From NCBI GenBank assembly GCA_903920455.1, contig CAIXLY010000095.1:1-54307 (forward strand): 54,307 nucleotides of DNA, in the 5' to 3' direction. The notes beneath the pieces are model-generated. The model made no database searches. It was not told the DNA's origin and saw only the letters and a list, made by a program, of their open reading frames with translations. The stretch comes from an uncultured bacterium. Its GTDB lineage: Bacteria; Bacteroidota; Bacteroidia; Chitinophagales; Chitinophagaceae. Positions within the stretch are counted from its first letter, which is position 1. The number at the start of each line of letters is the position of its first letter. Positions 8,119-20,860 of this stretch are shown one piece after another. A program made the translations under genes and the position numbers.

Positions 8119-9309
8119 ATGCCCCATGCCAGATATTCTCCTGAATTTAAATTGTTGCTGAGATGCCATGAGGCTCCTGCCAGCAGGGTGAAATTAGATT
8201 CGCAGATTCAGATATTGGCAACCCAATTTGATGAGAATATTTTTAAGTCGCTTCTTGTCCGACATCGAGTCGCTCCAATAGTATATCTTAACTTAAAAAA
8301 CCATCCATCTATTTCACCAGTGCTTAAGGATTGGTTAAAGTCAATGACTGAACAAAATCAACTCATTTCGTTGAAGTCTCTTCACATGATGTTGAATATC
8401 CAAAGAGAACTCAATAATCAAAATTTTGAAGGTGTATTTTTAAAAGGGGTTCCGCTGGCGGAAATGTATTATGGGGATACAGCACTGAGGGAGTCAATCG
8501 ATATTGATCTCTGGGTTGAGGAAAAAGCGATTGTTCCAATGTCAACATGGTTGAAGTCTCTTGGCTATGTATCCAACCTTAATATCGAAAACATCAACAA
8601 GCATCAGCTTCAATATATTAAAAGGACAGATTATCATCATGCATTAATCGCTACAAAGCCTGAGCTGTCAAGTAAAATTGAGTTGCACTGGAAGATTAGA
8701 GGAAGCTTGGGTGGCTTTAATCTTGATCCATCAAATCAGGATACCAACTTAATTACATGGTTTTATGGGGGGCTCGACTTAAAGGTATTTGATCATGTTG
8801 ATCAGTTTTTGTACCTCTGTACGCACGGTACAGAGCATGCTTGGTTTAGACTTAAATGGCTTTTTGATCTTCCTCAACTGATTGCAAAGATCAATTTCGA
8901 TTGGTGCGTTGTTAGGGAGCGGGCGAAAGTTCTAGGTTGTCTCGAACATCTTGAAATTTCTTTTTTGGTCTTGAAAGAAATTCTGAATATTGACATTCCA
9001 TTGCCTATTCTTGAACACATTGTACCAGGAAAGTATAAATATCATCTCAAGTATATTCTTCAGGCAATTAGATCTGACAGGGGATTTAATGAAAATGACC
9101 GAAATCGGAGTCGACACTTTTTATTTCTGTGGTCGCTTAGTAAAAAAAGACTCAATCCAAACCTATTTTTAAAATATTTGACAGGACCAGGCGATTGGAA
9201 ATATTTTCCCTTGCCAGAAAATCTCTTTTTTCTGTACTTTCCTTTAAGACCTTTTTTGTGGATTTCGCGCAGACTTTCCCATTCACTAAAATTTATGCTT
9301 ATCAAATAA
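8119..9309 (+). CDS. Lasso-cluster nucleotidyltransferase (NTP_transf_5 family)
   Basis: This 396-residue protein carries the pattern of the uncharacterised nucleotidyltransferase family PF14907: FLKG at about 108, YG, then an R-x-S-x-D-I-D-L-W acidic motif at about 125-134 that should bind metal-NTP. The family is known from RiPP and lasso clusters. In pseudomycoidin-type clusters such an enzyme modifies the phosphorylated C-terminus of the lasso peptide. Here it starts 13 bp after porU2 and its 3' end overlaps the convergent ABC gene by 24 bp. The presence of a kinase, RRE protein, B2 and cyclase nearby supports the lasso role, but the exact substrate is inference. Confidence 0.8.
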   Translation: MPHARYSPEFKLLLRCHEAPASRVKLDSQIQILATQFDENIFKSLLVRHRVAPIVYLNLKNHPSISPVLKDWLKSMTEQNQLISLKSLHMMLNIQRELNNQNFEGVFLKGVPLAEMYYGDTALRESIDIDLWVEEKAIVPMSTWLKSLGYVSNLNIENINKHQLQYIKRTDYHHALIATKPELSSKIELHWKIRGSLGGFNLDPSNQDTNLITWFYGGLDLKVFDHVDQFLYLCTHGTEHAWFRLKWLFDLPQLIAKINFDWCVVRERAKVLGCLEHLEISFLVLKEILNIDIPLPILEHIVPGKYKYHLKYILQAIRSDRGFNENDRNRSRHFLFLWSLSKKRLNPNLFLKYLTGPGDWKYFPLPENLFFLYFPLRPFLWISRRLSHSLKFMLIK

Positions 9310-11058
9310 ATCCTTAAATAATCCAGATTCTTGTATCAGTTCTTGGAAACTTCCCTCTTGAGCAATTCCTCCCTTTTCCATCACATAGATCCTGTCTGCG
9401 ATTTTTAGGTTATATAATCGATGGGAGATTAGAATTACAATACTGTCTTTGAATTCCGTTTTAATTTTCTCATACAGATTGATTTCTGAGAACCCATCCA
9501 GTGAGCTGCTGGGTTCATCAAGAATGACCAATGCCGCTTTTTTATAAAACATTCTCGACAAAACAACCTTCTGCCATTCTCCGCCACTCAGCTCTTGACT
9601 TCCTTCATGCATGCTGCCGAGCTTTGTTTTATATCCCAAGCTAAGTTTTTTCAGAAAATGATCTGCTTCTGATTGTTCCGCTGCGTATTCGGCTTGTCTG
9701 CTTATATCTTCATTTGGAGTAACTTGAAAGTGAATATTTTTTTCTGCCTCCATATAATATTTTTCATAGTCTTGGAAGAGGAAGGCTGTTTTCTGATAAT
9801 ATTCATCTTTTGATATGTCTTGAATATTCTTGCCATCTATTTTTATTGTTCCCAGCCCTGGCTTATACAAGCCGGCAATTAACTTGACCAGTGTTGATTT
9901 TCCTGAGCCATTTTCTCCAACGATTGCGATGGTCTCGCCTTTTCTTGCATTGATGTTGATGTGCTCAAGCATTGGTATGAGGCTATTGGGATACGTAAAA
10001 GATAGGTTTTGAATTTCGAGCTTTTCAAAACCAAGACTTGCTGCAAAACGATTGTTATGAGGCATTTCAGGCAGGTTGAAATACTCAATAAGGTCGCGTA
10101 CAAAAAGCCGCAGTTGAAAAATTTGCAGCACCGATTGCAAAAACGTTTTCGATGATATTTGCAGACGTTGAATTCCCTGAAGGTATAAAATGAACAAGCC
10201 GATGCTTATTGAATTGTTGATTGATTGATAGGCCAGATAAAGCATTGCTGCAGATATAGCCAAGACTTCCAGCAGCTCAGCAATAAGATTATTTTTTATG
10301 AAATCCAAATGAATGCTTTTTTTTGCTTTGGCAATCGAAGCACGGATTTTAAGGAATTCTTGTTGAAACATATTTCCAAATTGGAATGTTCTAAGTTCTT
10401 TTGCCCAGGGTAAGCCAGTGAGTATCCTAAATAGGTAAGACGATTCTCTTTCTTTTGGGGCAAGGGTGAATTCCAGGTCGGTTGTTTTTTTACCTTGATA
10501 CCATTTATTTATGGTCATTGGAACAGCCAAGATGAATATGGCCATGAAAAAGTAGGCTTTTAAAGATAGAAACAACAGTATTAGAAATACAAGCGATAAA
10601 AAATTTGATATTGCTCCATAGACCGCAGGTAAGAGTTGATTGATCCGATATTTCGCCTGTTGTTGAGCAAGATAGAGGGCGTTTTGAAAGGAGGGGTCCT
10701 CAAAATGAGTATATTCTATATGTATTGATTTCTGAATGATACGGTTCGCAAAAGAATCTGAAACAATTTGCTGAAAAGTATTTTCCCAGTAGGCGGAAGT
10801 TTGGTTTGTTAGAGCGATTGCTAGTTGGATGATGGCAAATTGAACAATGAGCGGGATCAATGCATCGGCGCGAAGGTTTCCTGCTATAATGATATCGACC
10901 AGATTTTTGATGCTATAGATTATACCCAAGGGGAGTATTGACTGCAATATTCTGCTAAAAAGTATGAGTGATGCTAGCCGTGGTTTCGTTAGCCAAATTT
11001 TCTTAGCGATTGCTCCAAATTGTTGAATGGAATGTATTATGCTTTCTTTAAACTTCAT
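9286..11058 (-). CDS. Lasso peptide ABC exporter (fused permease-ATPase)
   Basis: A 590-residue half-transporter. An N-terminal six-helix membrane domain (about residues 1-320) is followed by an ABC ATPase. Walker A is GENGSGKST (about 379-388), the signature is LSGGEWQK (about 489) and Walker B is LVILDEP with a following SSSLD. The family is that of McjD-like lasso exporters and other peptide ABC exporters; no peptidase C39 domain is present, consistent with leader removal by the separate B2 enzyme. It is the only cluster gene on the minus strand, divergent from the kinase gene with 49 bp between starts. Export and self-immunity is the likely role. Confidence 0.88.
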   Translation of the reverse strand: MKFKESIIHSIQQFGAIAKKIWLTKPRLASLILFSRILQSILPLGIIYSIKNLVDIIIAGNLRADALIPLIVQFAIIQLAIALTNQTSAYWENTFQQIVSDSFANRIIQKSIHIEYTHFEDPSFQNALYLAQQQAKYRINQLLPAVYGAISNFLSLVFLILLFLSLKAYFFMAIFILAVPMTINKWYQGKKTTDLEFTLAPKERESSYLFRILTGLPWAKELRTFQFGNMFQQEFLKIRASIAKAKKSIHLDFIKNNLIAELLEVLAISAAMLYLAYQSINNSISIGLFILYLQGIQRLQISSKTFLQSVLQIFQLRLFVRDLIEYFNLPEMPHNNRFAASLGFEKLEIQNLSFTYPNSLIPMLEHININARKGETIAIVGENGSGKSTLVKLIAGLYKPGLGTIKIDGKNIQDISKDEYYQKTAFLFQDYEKYYMEAEKNIHFQVTPNEDISRQAEYAAEQSEADHFLKKLSLGYKTKLGSMHEGSQELSGGEWQKVVLSRMFYKKAALVILDEPSSSLDGFSEINLYEKIKTEFKDSIVILISHRLYNLKIADRIYVMEKGGIAQEGSFQELIQESGLFKDLFDKHKF

Positions 11059-11107: not shown

Positions 11108-12022
11108 GTGTATTATTATTGGGCATATGGATTAACTGTAAAAAGTGAAATTGAATTTCCTGAGCTTTTTTCTATTCCAGAATCGAAGCAGGTGGATGTC
11201 GAGCTGTTGTTGGGTGAAATCCCCAACATAGACCTATCCCCAGGAGATTATAACTCTACTTTCAAAACAATTTCTGCAAAAGAATTTAGGCTTCTTGTAC
11301 CTGGAGTGGGCAGCTATTATTCAGGCTTTGGAGATAGGATAGTTTTAAGTCGCGAAGAAGGTGCTGATTGGGATAGCTTGAGGCTGTTTTGTCTCTCTAA
11401 TTCATTTGCCGCTATTTTGCACCAAAGAAAAATCATACCGATCCACTGTGCTGCTTTTTTATTTCGCGATCAGCTTGTGTTAATCTTTGGTCATTCAGGC
11501 GCAGGAAAATCTACTATTCTTGGAGTCATGATGAACAAGGGGTATCAAGTGTTTTCTGATGACGTCTGTGTTCCGGTTCTTGATCATGACAGCGGTTTAG
11601 TCAGCTTGTTAAGCTCTTACCCGATGTTGAAATATTGGAGCGATTCTCTGGGCCGACTTGGTATTGCTACAAATCAATTAAGCAGAAAAATTCTTCCAGA
11701 CATGGATAAGTTTGGTATTTATTTCCATGATAAATTTCTTATCGAGCCTCGAAAGCCGATATTTAGCTTTTTGCTGGAAGCCTTCAAAGAGCCAAAGCCT
11801 CTTACACTTCAGCCTATCAATGGAATCGACTTATTCCAGAGGCTAGAGCAAAATGCATATAGGGGAGAATATTTGGGGTATGCAAATTTAAAGCCTGAGC
11901 ATTTCAACTTGTTTACAAAATTGGCTAATCAATCCAAGAGTTTTTTGATTCAGCGTTCTGAAGAAGATGACACTGTCGATGATATTGTAAATCTAATTGA
12001 AGCAATGATAGCAAAAGGTTAG
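11108..12022 (+). CDS. HPr kinase-like lasso peptide kinase
   Basis: A 304-residue protein with an HPr-kinase/phosphorylase-like fold. The P-loop GHSGAGKST is at residues 128-136, preceded by PIHCAAF and followed by FSDDVC, which matches the metal-binding acidic motif of HprK. It lacks a recognisable PTS context. In the paeninodin cluster a homologue phosphorylates the side chain of the precursor's C-terminal Ser, and the precursor candidate here (14802-14951) does end in Ser. The start is GTG 11108 with AAAGG upstream; the nearby ATG at 11100 is out of frame and closes at once. Confidence is high for the fold and moderate for the substrate. Confidence 0.85.
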   Translation: MYYYWAYGLTVKSEIEFPELFSIPESKQVDVELLLGEIPNIDLSPGDYNSTFKTISAKEFRLLVPGVGSYYSGFGDRIVLSREEGADWDSLRLFCLSNSFAAILHQRKIIPIHCAAFLFRDQLVLIFGHSGAGKSTILGVMMNKGYQVFSDDVCVPVLDHDSGLVSLLSSYPMLKYWSDSLGRLGIATNQLSRKILPDMDKFGIYFHDKFLIEPRKPIFSFLLEAFKEPKPLTLQPINGIDLFQRLEQNAYRGEYLGYANLKPEHFNLFTKLANQSKSFLIQRSEEDDTVDDIVNLIEAMIAKG

Positions 12023-12050
12023 GCATTTGATATTCACTAATTTTATATTC

Positions 12051-12320
12051 ATGATAAGGTACATACATAACAAAGAAATTATACAATCTAAAATAGGAGA
12101 GGAGGTGGTGATGCTGGATATGGAATCGGGTTTTTACTTTGGATTAAATTCGGTTGCCTCTGTTATTTGGAAGATGATGGAGCAAGAGATTAGTTTTGAT
12201 CTGATGATTGAACGGCTGATGGGAACATTTAATGTTGAACGATCTCTTTGTGAATCTGATACCAAAGAATTAATTGATCAGCTGCTTGAAAAGAAAATCA
12301 TAAGGGAAGTAAATTCATGA
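12051..12320 (+). CDS. PqqD-like RiPP recognition protein (lasso B1/RRE)
   Basis: This small PqqD-family protein has about 89 residues. It has the family pattern GEEVVMLDMESGFYFGLN followed by a helical part with IW at the usual place (SVIWKMM). Such RiPP recognition elements bind the leader peptide, in lasso systems through the Y/W-x-x-P-x-L motif, and present it to the B2 protease. I chose ATG 12051 because the upstream in-frame start is a TTG (12027) that adds a hydrophobic tail unlike the family. Its stop overlaps the B2 start by 4 bp (ATGA), indicating translational coupling. Confidence 0.88.
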   Translation: MIRYIHNKEIIQSKIGEEVVMLDMESGFYFGLNSVASVIWKMMEQEISFDLMIERLMGTFNVERSLCESDTKELIDQLLEKKIIREVNS

Positions 12321-12730
12321 AAAAGGCTAGTATAAAAGACTATTTATTTTTCACTGAGGCCTGGGTATTACTCCACCTTGCCAAGGCATCCATTATTATA
12401 ATGCCATTTAAAAAACTAGCATTAAGTTTGGGAAGGAGTCAGAAAGAAACTGATTTTAGTTCTACAGAAGATACGGTTGCTCTTGATATTGCTCATGCAG
12501 TTCGACGAGCGGCAAGATTTACCATTCATGCCAGTAAGTGCTATGATCAGGCATTGACTGGCAAGTTGATGCTTAAATACAGAAAAGTTTCTTCTACTAT
12601 TTATTTTGGGCTTGCCAAAGATCAGAATTCAACACTTTCTGCTCATGCTTGGCTTAGATCTGGAAACATGGTTGTGACTGGAAGGAAGGCAATGGAGAGA
12701 TTCACTCCCGTTGCCTGGTTCGGCAGTTAG
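12317..12730 (+). CDS. Lasso peptide leader peptidase B2 (transglutaminase-like)
   Basis: A 137-residue protein of the PF13471 transglutaminase-like family that cuts the leader from lasso precursors. The nucleophile is Cys75 in SKCYDQALTGKLML, and the catalytic His is His110 in SAHAWL. The third triad residue is not obvious: the usual acidic position after HAW is in an S-G-N context. Separate B1 and B2 genes are the standard arrangement outside Proteobacteria. It is coupled by ATGA overlap to the RRE gene and is followed after 118 bp by the cyclase. Confidence 0.88.
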   Translation: MKKASIKDYLFFTEAWVLLHLAKASIIIMPFKKLALSLGRSQKETDFSSTEDTVALDIAHAVRRAARFTIHASKCYDQALTGKLMLKYRKVSSTIYFGLAKDQNSTLSAHAWLRSGNMVVTGRKAMERFTPVAWFGS

Positions 12731-12848: not shown

Positions 12849-14783
12849 ATGAGTAGCTTCTTCGGCATATTTCGTCCACAAGGAGGCTCAGTTAATCTGG
12901 AAGCCTTTGAAGACATGCGAAAAGCTAGTGAGCGGGATGGGTTTGATGTAATGTCAACACATGTCGAAGATAAGATTGCCATGGGGTATCTTATGCTGCG
13001 CGTTTCACCTGAGGATCAAGATGATCACCAGCCCTTAACAAGTTCATGTGGTAGGTATTTATTAGTCGGTCATTTTCGATTGGATTATCGAGATGATCTT
13101 GGAGATAAAATTGGATTAATCCAGTCGCAATTAGAAAAAACTCCTGATTCAGCAATCGCGTTGATGGCTTTTCAGAAGTGGGGCCAGAGATGTGTTCATC
13201 ATATGGAGGGTGATTTTGCCTTTGCGATTTATGACGGCTTAATTGGGGTCTTATCACTTCTTAAAGATCGATTTGGATCCTCCGCTTTGTTTTATGGTAA
13301 GCTGGGAAGTGACTTTATCTTTTCCACAGACCCTTGCCTTTTTACTAAGATGAATAATCGTTATAATTTTGAATTGAATGAAAATGCATTTTTCAGAACT
13401 GGAATTAAAGGATTAGGTCTCGAATCGGGTGAAACTTATTTTGATCATGTTTTCTCTCTTGAATGCAGTTGTATTGTATCAGTAGACGAAAAGCTTCATG
13501 TTCAGAAGTATCAATATTATAAAATTCCCTCTATAAAAATCCGCTATTCCTTTTGTGAAGATTATATATTTCAGTTTCATTCATTTATACATCAGTCTGT
13601 TTCCAATCGATTAAGGGCTTCAAGGGTAGGGTTGTTCCTGAGTGCAGGTCTTGACTCCTCAATGGTTGCATATTTTGCCGCTAAAGAAATGGAATATCAA
13701 AAGAGAAGGTTATCGACTTTCACTTCTTATCCTTATCACATCGGGCATATCAATGCTGAAAAACAATTACGGATTAGCGAGCATTCATTTGTTGAAAGAA
13801 ATGTCTCAGCCCTGTTAAATATAGAGCCAAATTTTTTCAATTTCCCTGATCTCATGCATTCCCAATTGATCGATTCAAATAAATTCAATAACATATTGAA
13901 TCCTGTCATTTCTTCAAATTCATTTTGGCTCGATGGAATAAATAATGCTGCAAGCAAGAATGGAATTAAGCGAATGCTTAATGGTCAGATGGGTAATTAT
14001 ATAGTGTCCTGGAATGCTCCGTTTTCAAGCTTGGACTACCTTTTTCGATTTCGGCTTTTAGCTTTGTATAAGACCTTAAAATATATTAACACAATTCGCA
14101 AAACAAGCATTATTGATTTTCTTGTTGGTGAGTTGGCAAAACCTTTCTACCAATTCATTAAAAACAGGATTAGTAGACTCGGGTATTTAATTTTTAAAAT
14201 AGGCTTGGATGTTAGTTTTTTAAAGTTTGATAAAAGAAAGATCAAAGTTGATTTCTCCAAACAATTTCACTCTCGCTTTTCCACTTTAATTGGTCCCAAG
14301 CGACTTAGATTACATTTGTTTGAATCCAACATGACCAATGTTGGTCAGAGGTGGTATGTTCAGGCCAATGAACATGCAGTGCAGTCTGCTGATCCTTTTA
14401 CAGATCTTCGGCTTGTTGAATATTCATTCTCTATTCCTGAGCTGTTGTATAATTTTTATGGTGATAAAAAATTCATTTATAAGAAACTCATGCAAGGTGT
14501 TATTGACTCGGATATGCTTTCAAGGTTAAGCGGAATGCCTCAGTCATATGATATTGGTCGCAGACTTCAGAGTGATAAACCGTTTGTGCAAATGATTGAA
14601 GCCTTAATTCTGCAAAAAAGTTTTCCGGACGATTTTGATTATGCTGGAGTAGAAAAAATGCTGAGTGTTCTACGATCAACCGATCAGGATTCTTTGATGA
14701 ATAAAAACGCTACAGAACTACTAAAATTCATTTCTCTTCACCTTTTTCTATCAAAATTTGTCAGCAACAGAATTAGTGAGTAA
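12849..14783 (+). CDS. Lasso peptide cyclase C (asparagine synthetase-like)
   Basis: A 644-residue AsnB homologue. The N-terminal half resembles a class II glutamine amidotransferase domain but begins MSSFFG, so the catalytic Cys2 of true asparagine synthetase is missing, as is normal in lasso cyclases that need no ammonia. The C-terminal half has the ATP-PPi loop SAGLDSS at about residue 264-270. By family, it adenylates the Asp/Glu side chain of the core peptide and joins it to the freed N-terminus to make the macrolactam ring. Location between B2 and the precursor candidate supports this. I see no frameshift. Confidence 0.9.
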   Translation: MSSFFGIFRPQGGSVNLEAFEDMRKASERDGFDVMSTHVEDKIAMGYLMLRVSPEDQDDHQPLTSSCGRYLLVGHFRLDYRDDLGDKIGLIQSQLEKTPDSAIALMAFQKWGQRCVHHMEGDFAFAIYDGLIGVLSLLKDRFGSSALFYGKLGSDFIFSTDPCLFTKMNNRYNFELNENAFFRTGIKGLGLESGETYFDHVFSLECSCIVSVDEKLHVQKYQYYKIPSIKIRYSFCEDYIFQFHSFIHQSVSNRLRASRVGLFLSAGLDSSMVAYFAAKEMEYQKRRLSTFTSYPYHIGHINAEKQLRISEHSFVERNVSALLNIEPNFFNFPDLMHSQLIDSNKFNNILNPVISSNSFWLDGINNAASKNGIKRMLNGQMGNYIVSWNAPFSSLDYLFRFRLLALYKTLKYINTIRKTSIIDFLVGELAKPFYQFIKNRISRLGYLIFKIGLDVSFLKFDKRKIKVDFSKQFHSRFSTLIGPKRLRLHLFESNMTNVGQRWYVQANEHAVQSADPFTDLRLVEYSFSIPELLYNFYGDKKFIYKKLMQGVIDSDMLSRLSGMPQSYDIGRRLQSDKPFVQMIEALILQKSFPDDFDYAGVEKMLSVLRSTDQDSLMNKNATELLKFISLHLFLSKFVSNRISE

Positions 14784-14801: not shown

Positions 14802-14951
14802 ATGAAGACTTGGGAGAAACCAATTTTGATTTTTTTGGAAATTAAGTCTACTCACGGACTTTGTGAGGGAGCGCCGGAAGGTGAGGCACAGAAAATTTAC
14901 ACAGAAGGAAGTGACGCTGATTTGTTAGCCACTTGTTTTTATATTAGCTAA
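14802..14951 (+). CDS. Lasso peptide precursor candidate (49 aa)
   Basis: An ATG frame of 49 codons lies 18 bp after the cyclase stop. Residues 4-9 read W-E-K-P-I-L, then L12, E13, I14, K15, and Thr17 at position -2. This matches the lasso leader rule Y/W-x-x-P-x-L ... T-x and closely follows the paeninodin-type leader pattern K-P-x-L-x-x-L-[DE]-[IV]-K-x-T. Cleavage after His18 frees Gly19. Eight residues (GLCEGAPE) then give a Gly1-Glu8 ring, the same size and P-E ending as in microcin J25. The core would have 31 residues, with Cys at core positions 3 and 27 and Ser at the C-terminus, the residue a lasso kinase modifies. It ends 3 bp from the convergent ribE stop. The frame is certain; the identity is inferred from the motifs plus context. 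Confidence 0.82.
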   Translation: MKTWEKPILIFLEIKSTHGLCEGAPEGEAQKIYTEGSDADLLATCFYIS

Positions 14952-20293: not shown

Positions 20294-20860
20294 CTAGTTA
20301 GATGAACCTTCAGATTTTTCTGCTTGAGTTGCTGGAGAACTGGTTTCAGTAAAAGGCAATTCGTGACTGGTTATTACAGGGGATGATGTTGGAGTAGTAT
20401 CAACCGCTGGTGCTGTAACCAAAGGGTTAGAAATCATTTTTTTTGCTCTAGCTTTTTTTGCAACTTTCTTGGGAGCAGTCTTGATGACCACTGATGGTGT
20501 TGCGGGCTTCTTAGCTGCTTTTTTTGGGGAAGATTTTTTTACTGCCTTTTTTGGTGCAGCTTTTTTAGCAGCTTTTTTTGGAGCAACTTTTTTGGAGGCT
20601 TTCTTTACTGCTTTTTTAGGAGCAGCTTTCTTTGCAGCCTTTTTAACAGGTTTCTTTACTGCTTTTTTGGGAGCAGCCTTCTTAGAAGCTTTTTTAGCCG
20701 CTTTCTTCACTGCTTTTTTGGGAGCAGCCTTTTTAGCCGCTTTCTTTACTGCCTTTTTTGGAGCAGCTTTTTTTACAGACTTTTTAGCAGATTTCTTTAC
20801 AGCCTTCTTTGCAGTGGCTTTTTTAGCAGATTTTTTAACTGTTTTTTTTGCGGAAGCCAT
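20294..20860 (-). CDS. Histone H1-like Lys/Ala/Pro-repeat DNA-binding protein
   Basis: A 188-residue protein whose first 135 residues are nearly all repeats of the AAPKKAVKKAAKK type, giving a strongly basic, disordered tail like histone H1 or AlgP-type proteins. A non-basic Thr/Ser/Pro/Glu-rich tail follows (about 145-188). It probably binds DNA or RNA without sequence specificity. It is transcribed against the secE-nusG and rplK genes it separates. The repeat makes assembly and length polymorphism likely. The ORF in the other strand is a shadow of the repeat. Confidence 0.8.
   Translation of the reverse strand: MASAKKTVKKSAKKATAKKAVKKSAKKSVKKAAPKKAVKKAAKKAAPKKAVKKAAKKASKKAAPKKAVKKPVKKAAKKAAPKKAVKKASKKVAPKKAAKKAAPKKAVKKSSPKKAAKKPATPSVVIKTAPKKVAKKARAKKMISNPLVTAPAVDTTPTSSPVITSHELPFTETSSPATQAEKSEGSSN

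Follow-up and report, generated by a model that had tools for sequence, protein, structure and literature searches.

A 49-aa open frame lying directly behind a lasso-type cyclase gene in the 54,307-nucleotide stretch of Chitinophagaceae DNA analysed here (the window) is near certain to be a lasso-type RiPP precursor, and the ring of its product may be closed inside the core, from the side chain of an internal Lys to an Asp six or seven residues further on. The constant feature of the family, which a preliminary description of this frame had missed, is one Lys with an Asp at +6 or +7, two Cys and a terminal Ser. The best reading of these sequences would combine an internal ring between the Lys31 side chain and Asp38, a leader cut after Thr-x, a disulfide and a phosphorylatable Ser; we give this combination an even chance. 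That the Lys-x5/6-Asp pair is the ring pair in some form is considered quite likely, and closure of this ring by the Lys side chain is rated at about one chance in two.

The frame (14802–14951, + strand) starts 18 nt past the cyclase stop (14783), its genus counterparts are found at the same site, and its translation is MKTWEKPILIFLEIKSTHGLCEGAPEGEAQKIYTEGSDADLLATCFYIS followed by a stop codon. In the leader recognition motif W4-x2-P7-x4-L12-x4-T17 (14811–14852, +), W, P, L and T do not vary across the 14 precursors aligned as A2. The presence of this motif agrees with the paeninodin-type leader proposed earlier, and the residues listed at that time (W4, K6, P7, L9, L12-E13-I14-K15, T17, G19 and P25-E26, with E26 as residue 8 from G19) were read correctly. 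Both the [YW]xxP motif and the Thr at −2 of lasso leaders are present, with the cut placed by prediction after Thr-x. The Thr(−2) rule, as seen in 17 of 21 outgroup cores and as described in PMC10368454, gives a predicted core of 31 aa from Gly19 to Ser49 (14856–14948, +). Within this core, all on the + strand, are Cys21 (14862–14864), the first of exactly two core Cys; Glu26 (14877–14879), the ring acceptor of the preliminary description, which lacks family support; Lys31 (14892–14894), the sole core Lys and proposed ring donor; Asp38 (14913–14915), at Lys+7, the proposed ring acceptor; Cys45 (14934–14936), the second core Cys and putative disulfide partner; and the C-terminal Ser49 (14946–14948), a proposed phosphorylation site for which the kinase PadeK, acting on the C-terminal Ser in paeninodin-type clusters, is the precedent (PMC9266682).

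The strict motif W-x2-P-x4-L-x4-T occurred in one of the 766 window ORFs (six-frame, at least 20 aa), which was the precursor frame, and a leader profile of 11 relatives, with the window row excluded, ranked the same frame first of the 766 (E 0.053). That E value is weak by itself; positional homology is the stronger evidence. The window peptide gave no match in Pfam or NCBIfam. The paeninodin model NF033524 did not match it either, and matched one of nine relatives scanned at 22.5 bits, below the cut-off of 27; another of the nine showed a weak StsA match (E 0.083). A search of 60 genomes with the single peptide found nothing convincing beyond the window's own genome (best E 0.04), and two of its weak matches, G030:C243 and G025:C202, were later recognized as real precursors by profile A2. 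The best single-peptide match, G023:C188:1043, was rejected, as it is not that contig's precursor.

Upstream of the frame are genes for an NTP_transf_5 nucleotidyltransferase (8119–9309, +; PF14907, 4.8e-39), an ABC exporter comprising permease and ATPase (9286–11058, −; PF00005, 1e-30), an HprK-like kinase (11108–12022, +; TIGR04352, 1.1e-8, below cut-off; P-loop GHSGAGKST), a B1 protein, or RRE, of the PqqD family (12027–12320, +; PF05402, 2.5e-15; NF033536, 58.8 bits, below the cut-off of 80), a leader peptidase B2 (12317–12730, +; NF033537, 86.9 bits, above the cut-off of 33) and an asparagine-synthetase-like, lasso-type macrolactam cyclase (C) of 644 aa (12849–14783, +; NF033535, 173 bits, cut-off 525; GATase_7 and Asn_synthase). 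The RRE, the B2 peptidase and the cyclase, the set by which lasso clusters are recognized, are all beside the precursor, B1 and C being homologous though below the NCBIfam cut-offs. The Cys and His of B2 are kept in 12 of 12 aligned sequences, where nothing genus-specific was seen at these residues, and S265, G267, D269 and S270 of the cyclase adenylating loop S-x-G-x-D-S are invariant in 10 of 10. The pairing of an HprK-like kinase with a C-terminal Ser that marks paeninodin-type clusters is also present, the kinase being recognized by weak models only and its activity predicted. An ATP-grasp domain, the mark of graspetide clusters, is absent from the seven cluster proteins.

Of 41 genomes of the genus, 24 had matches to the B2 model, some of these matches belonging to another system. 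We read 18 lasso-type clusters (16 loci, L104 and the window), and 13 records of the genus clusters are metagenome bins. The cyclase 3' end was assembled in 15 of the 18, and the precursor was directly behind it in all 15, window included, as a separate ORF in 14 and as an in-frame fusion in one; for G030 the cyclase 3' end is on a second contig and was assumed by inference to be of the same gene, and three clusters that end before the precursor (L046, L050, L051) were left out. The earlier proposal of a 49-aa lasso-type precursor behind the cyclase was thus supported; it had been made to depend on homologues adjoining other lasso cyclases, and these were found in the genus clusters. An ORF starting MLIIDSKDCENIDK, presumably ribosomal protein S21, was located less than 900 nt downstream in 11 of 12 other loci examined, so that the cluster appears to occupy a fixed genomic place. 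The phylum and family searches covered samples of 395 and 394 genomes from larger groups; in the profile search of the 394 family genomes, the precursor outside the genus was represented by one weak match (G510, 3.5e-4).

In the fusion (L067:4968–7073, the same as L047, G025:C202) cyclase and precursor form one open frame of 702 aa, a natural enzyme–substrate fusion, unless the assembly has lost a stop; an in-frame ATG at L067:6942 could start the peptide alone. An AlphaFold model of the 702 aa had a mean pLDDT of 67 and a disordered precursor tail, and was uninformative on docking. Foldseek with this model retrieved 7ylz, asparagine synthetases, and beta-lactam and carbapenam synthetases, matches that confirm the predicted cyclase fold only. 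At L174 (G023:C240, 3635–4260; the G023 genome is 7% contaminated) B2 is followed directly by a 36-aa precursor that has the leader, one Lys and Asp at Lys+6, and is without Cys and without a cyclase.

In genomes, the ring of a lasso peptide is located by counting along from core residue 1 and taking an acid at residues 7–9. The Thr of the genus leaders is at the outgroup leader position or one residue earlier and the cut is therefore expected after Thr-x; counts were made on 15 distinct genus cores numbered from the residue after Thr-x. The identical cores of G021, G453, L054 and L055 were counted once with L053, the decayed G015 copy was left out though Asp at Lys+6 is kept there, and a second Lys of G455 at Thr+1, where the leader is predicted to end, was not counted as core. 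Asp or Glu at 7–9 was found in 6 of the 15 cores, compared to a shuffled mean of 5.98. The preliminary description had drawn a ring GLCEGAPE from Gly1 to Glu8; residue 1 is Gly in just 3 of the 15, and with the acceptor rule at chance in the family (6 of 15 versus 6.0) the Gly1–Glu8 arrangement in the window is no evidence of a ring, and such a ring is unlikely.

Exactly one Lys follows Thr-x in each of the 15 cores, at any location from core residue 1 to 13, and Asp is at Lys+6 (11 cores) or Lys+7 (four cores) in all of them; shuffling within cores gave a mean of 2.39, and none of 20,000 shuffles reached 15. For the first 12 cores, pooled shuffles produced 4.65 one-Lys cores of 12, and none of 20,000 reached 12. 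A C-terminal Ser was present in 15 of 15, two Cys in 14 (the exception being the G023:C240 remnant), the first Cys fell between Thr and Lys in 11, and the distance from Lys to the end ranged from 12 to 25 aa. Judged by eye, no acceptor spacing was fixed from Cys or from the C-terminus. The Lys-Asp pair was spotted post hoc, in cores related to one another. An abundance-corrected scan of residue pairs and offsets scored it at 3.3e-13, the best value in 120 shuffled sets being 1.2e-5; an uncorrected all-pairs scan was not decisive, as a pair present in all 12 cores also arose in 1 of 300 shuffled sets. The rule, first noticed in 12 cores, held in each of three later ones (reached in 71 of 20,000 shuffles), these three being only partly independent: for two of them the profile match extended into core columns, one of these being G030, which is similar to L047, and the third matched by leader only.

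The outgroup comprised 21 hand-picked cores from 14 loci of Acidobacteriota and of the family and class to which the window belongs. These were cut with Thr at −2 for 17 of the 21 and with Ile/Val at −2 for L109, L112, L116 and L135, following PMC10368454; excluded were precursors with other leader types or unclear cuts (two in L119, L121, two in L122, L126 and L128), a near copy in L110 and the L131 pair, which is distant from the cyclase. An acid at 8 or 9 occurs in 21 of 21 outgroup cores (expected for an acid at 7–9, 7.5). They are 13–22 aa long and vary at residue 1 (G, A, S, N, V, F and others); none contains Cys, 19 of the 21 contain no Lys, and one has the Lys-Asp spacing. In a tree of 39 cyclases the 14 genus sequences fell on one side of a branch supported at 100/100 and present in 100% of 200 bootstrap trees, with L047 and L048 as long branches. 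The nearest outgroup cyclases, L117, L120 and L121 (support 94/85), have precursors of 32–35 aa between kinase and cyclase (L117, 11389–11496; L120, 11034–11141; L121, 6247–6345) without Thr at the leader place, without Cys and without the Lys-Asp spacing; a cut behind E-I-N-[AN] would put Asp at 7. With Thr absent, their ring is not countable in the same way, and they are not among the 21. The switch would therefore go with the genus clade of cyclases. Two Acidobacteriota clusters carry classic lasso precursors in tandem behind one cyclase, five in L070 (6801–7973) and three in L071 (6605–7281). At L131 (4890–5722) there are two precursors of another family; in the first, Thr-Glu is followed by a stretch with Lys as residue 1 and Asp as residue 9, which could be a lasso closed at Lys1.

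The pathway that we propose is predicted as to its cut site, ring bond, threading, disulfide, phosphate and export. B1 would bind the leader through W-x2-P-x4-L, the kinase could phosphorylate the terminal Ser, and B2 would cut after Thr17-His18, a site suggested by leader geometry and the literature. The cyclase would then adenylate Asp38 and join it to the side-chain amine of Lys31, not to the new N-terminus, to give a ring of 8 residues and 29 atoms in the window and of 26 atoms in the Lys+6 relatives. Classic 7- to 9-residue rings have 22–29 atoms, and 26 and 29 match the classic 8- and 9-residue Glu rings. An N-terminal tail with Cys21 and a C-terminal tail with Cys45 would leave the ring, probably bridged by a disulfide, and the ABC protein would export the product.

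The main rival, which we regard as unlikely though well ahead of a bare possibility, is a classic lasso starting at the Lys: B2 or a second protease would trim the peptide back to Lys31, whose alpha-amine, now that of residue 1, would close on Asp7 or Asp8 in a ring of 22 or 25 atoms. It draws on the same Lys-Asp statistics, and the 12–25 aa from Lys to the end are near the 13–22 aa of the outgroup cores, i.e., the length of a classic core, which fits this rival and counts against the side-chain reading. In L053–L055 the Lys is core residue 1 after Thr-x, an arrangement compatible with a side-chain ring and with a Lys1 lasso alike. The place of the leader Thr, however, is fixed, yet the distance from Thr to Lys runs from 2 to 14 residues, and a product starting at Lys would be short of one of two Cys in 11 of the 15 cores. 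Given that 11 of 15 have a Cys between these two residues and that 14 of 15 retain a Cys pair, we argue that the part preceding the Lys is kept in the product. Nor does an alpha-amine donor explain an invariant single Lys, as residue 1 of the outgroup varies. The side-chain donor is preferred over the Lys1 alpha-amine for these reasons: every core has a Lys and none has two, residue 1 differs from core to core as it does in the outgroup, and Cys precedes Lys in 11 of 15.

Two further readings were each judged improbable. A classic ring from Gly19 to Glu26, as in the preliminary description, would leave a 31-residue core with a long tail, in which Lys and Asp are kept for, e.g., target binding; the window alone fits it, with G1, E8 and Thr at −2, but 9 of the 15 distinct cores have no Asp or Glu at 7–9 and the other 6 are at the shuffle level. 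Alternatively, no macrolactam is formed: the product would be a disulfide-bridged phosphorylated peptide in which Lys-Asp is a salt bridge and the cyclase has another role, as the two Cys of 14 of 15 cores and the persistence of orphan precursors with unchanged core where a full cyclase was not found would suggest. Because these orphans keep Lys-Asp where the cyclase was not found, the pair may have a cyclase-free use, a point that also weighs against the side-chain ring; in the clusters read, nonetheless, the gene after the peptidase encodes a cyclase, whose adenylating loop is invariant in 10 of 10 aligned. That the frame is a chance ORF has next to no probability: it is short and has no Pfam or NCBIfam match, but its positional homologues were present in 15 of 15 clusters and one core of its relatives carries third-position-only substitutions, which refutes this reading.

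We know of no lasso cyclase that uses a Lys side chain, and literature searches, in the excerpts that they returned, turned up no example of a lasso-type peptide whose ring is closed at an internal Lys. Lys to Asp/Glu side-chain lactams are known from graspetides, where ATP-grasp ligases make them; the bond proposed here is of the same type, with the difference that no ATP-grasp ligase is in the cluster. In disulfide lassos of classes I, III and IV the ring is closed at residue 1, whereas the acceptor rule from residue 1 fails for the genus family; the likeness is in core Cys able to bridge (PMC9266682). Lariocidin B (PMC11451635) has a classic first ring, Ser1–Asp8, and a second ring formed by an isopeptide from the Lys2 side chain to the C-terminal carboxyl of Arg17, Gly18 being removed by the clostripain-like LrcF; this second bond is the nearest chemistry that the literature searches gave. 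Metanodin (PMC12670498) begins, unusually for a lasso, with Asn, and its ring is still at residue 1, unlike the internal Lys ring proposed here. Paeninodin-type clusters, which have a kinase, an NTP transferase and WxxP leaders, are called restricted to Bacillota in PMC13381572. The window resembles the paeninodin type (PadeA) in its W-x-x-P leader, Thr at −2, B1/B2/C set, HprK-like kinase, NTP_transf_5 and C-terminal Ser, but the genus cores have no conserved acid at 7–9, they carry the internal Lys-Asp pair and two Cys, and the host is of the Chitinophagaceae.

One 20-aa core, KNFIQCDGIGVPGEDYACFS, is identical in L053, L054, L055, G021 (L169) and G453 (L170). Pairwise comparison of its 20 codons showed 5–13 synonymous and no non-synonymous changes, all at third positions; the 20 codons before it had 9–13 non-synonymous changes per pair except for G021 versus G453, with one. 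Over the 40 codons of core and leader, G021 and G453 differ by 12 synonymous changes and 1 non-synonymous. No full cyclase and no B2 were found in G021 and G453, genomes that are 87% and 84% complete and whose assemblies may be missing genes. Near its contig end G453 has a 51-residue cyclase remnant, and the sequence upstream of it is common to G021, which makes a single ancestral deletion likely. G455 (L171) has an intact orphan precursor obeying the Lys-Asp rule and G015 (L173) a decayed one, joined to the beginning of an unrelated frame, and no full cyclase or B2 was found in either genome. The four orphan precursors (L169, L170, L171, L173) are at the usual site, intact in three and decayed in G015. 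An orphan peptide may be processed by enzymes elsewhere, or it may have its own use. A search of viral_contigs detected neither a relative of the cyclase nor the frozen core.

Taken together, the genus may hold a donor-switched cyclase clade that joins an internal Lys, anywhere in core residues 1–13, to an Asp 6–7 residues on, to make a two-tailed ring peptide, perhaps threaded and disulfide-locked, of which one 20-residue product is unchanged in five genomes, with the enzymes not found in two; we put this fuller account at slightly under an even chance. If Lys-Asp closure inside the core is true, the residue-1 counting rule mis-assigns a whole genus, and a lasso cyclase would act as a side-chain to side-chain ligase, leaving a free N-terminal tail in a scaffold unknown for lasso enzymes. 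The genus also bears on the role of such peptides, as it combines hypervariable cores with a core that five genomes share unchanged, and retains precursors after the apparent loss of the enzymes.

Within the genus, loci L017, L018 and L020–L023 carry a second B2-like gene, whose neighbours are in most cases an epimerase-like gene and a frame starting MGICLNMIVKNE or similar. A distant asparagine-synthetase-like match is near several of them. These loci represent a different system, perhaps for surface polysaccharide. Elsewhere in the window, 20294–20860 (−) encodes a highly repetitive Lys/Ala/Pro-rich protein with KKAAPKKA repeats, adjoining a frame that we take to be nusG; like frames occur at the same place in some relatives.
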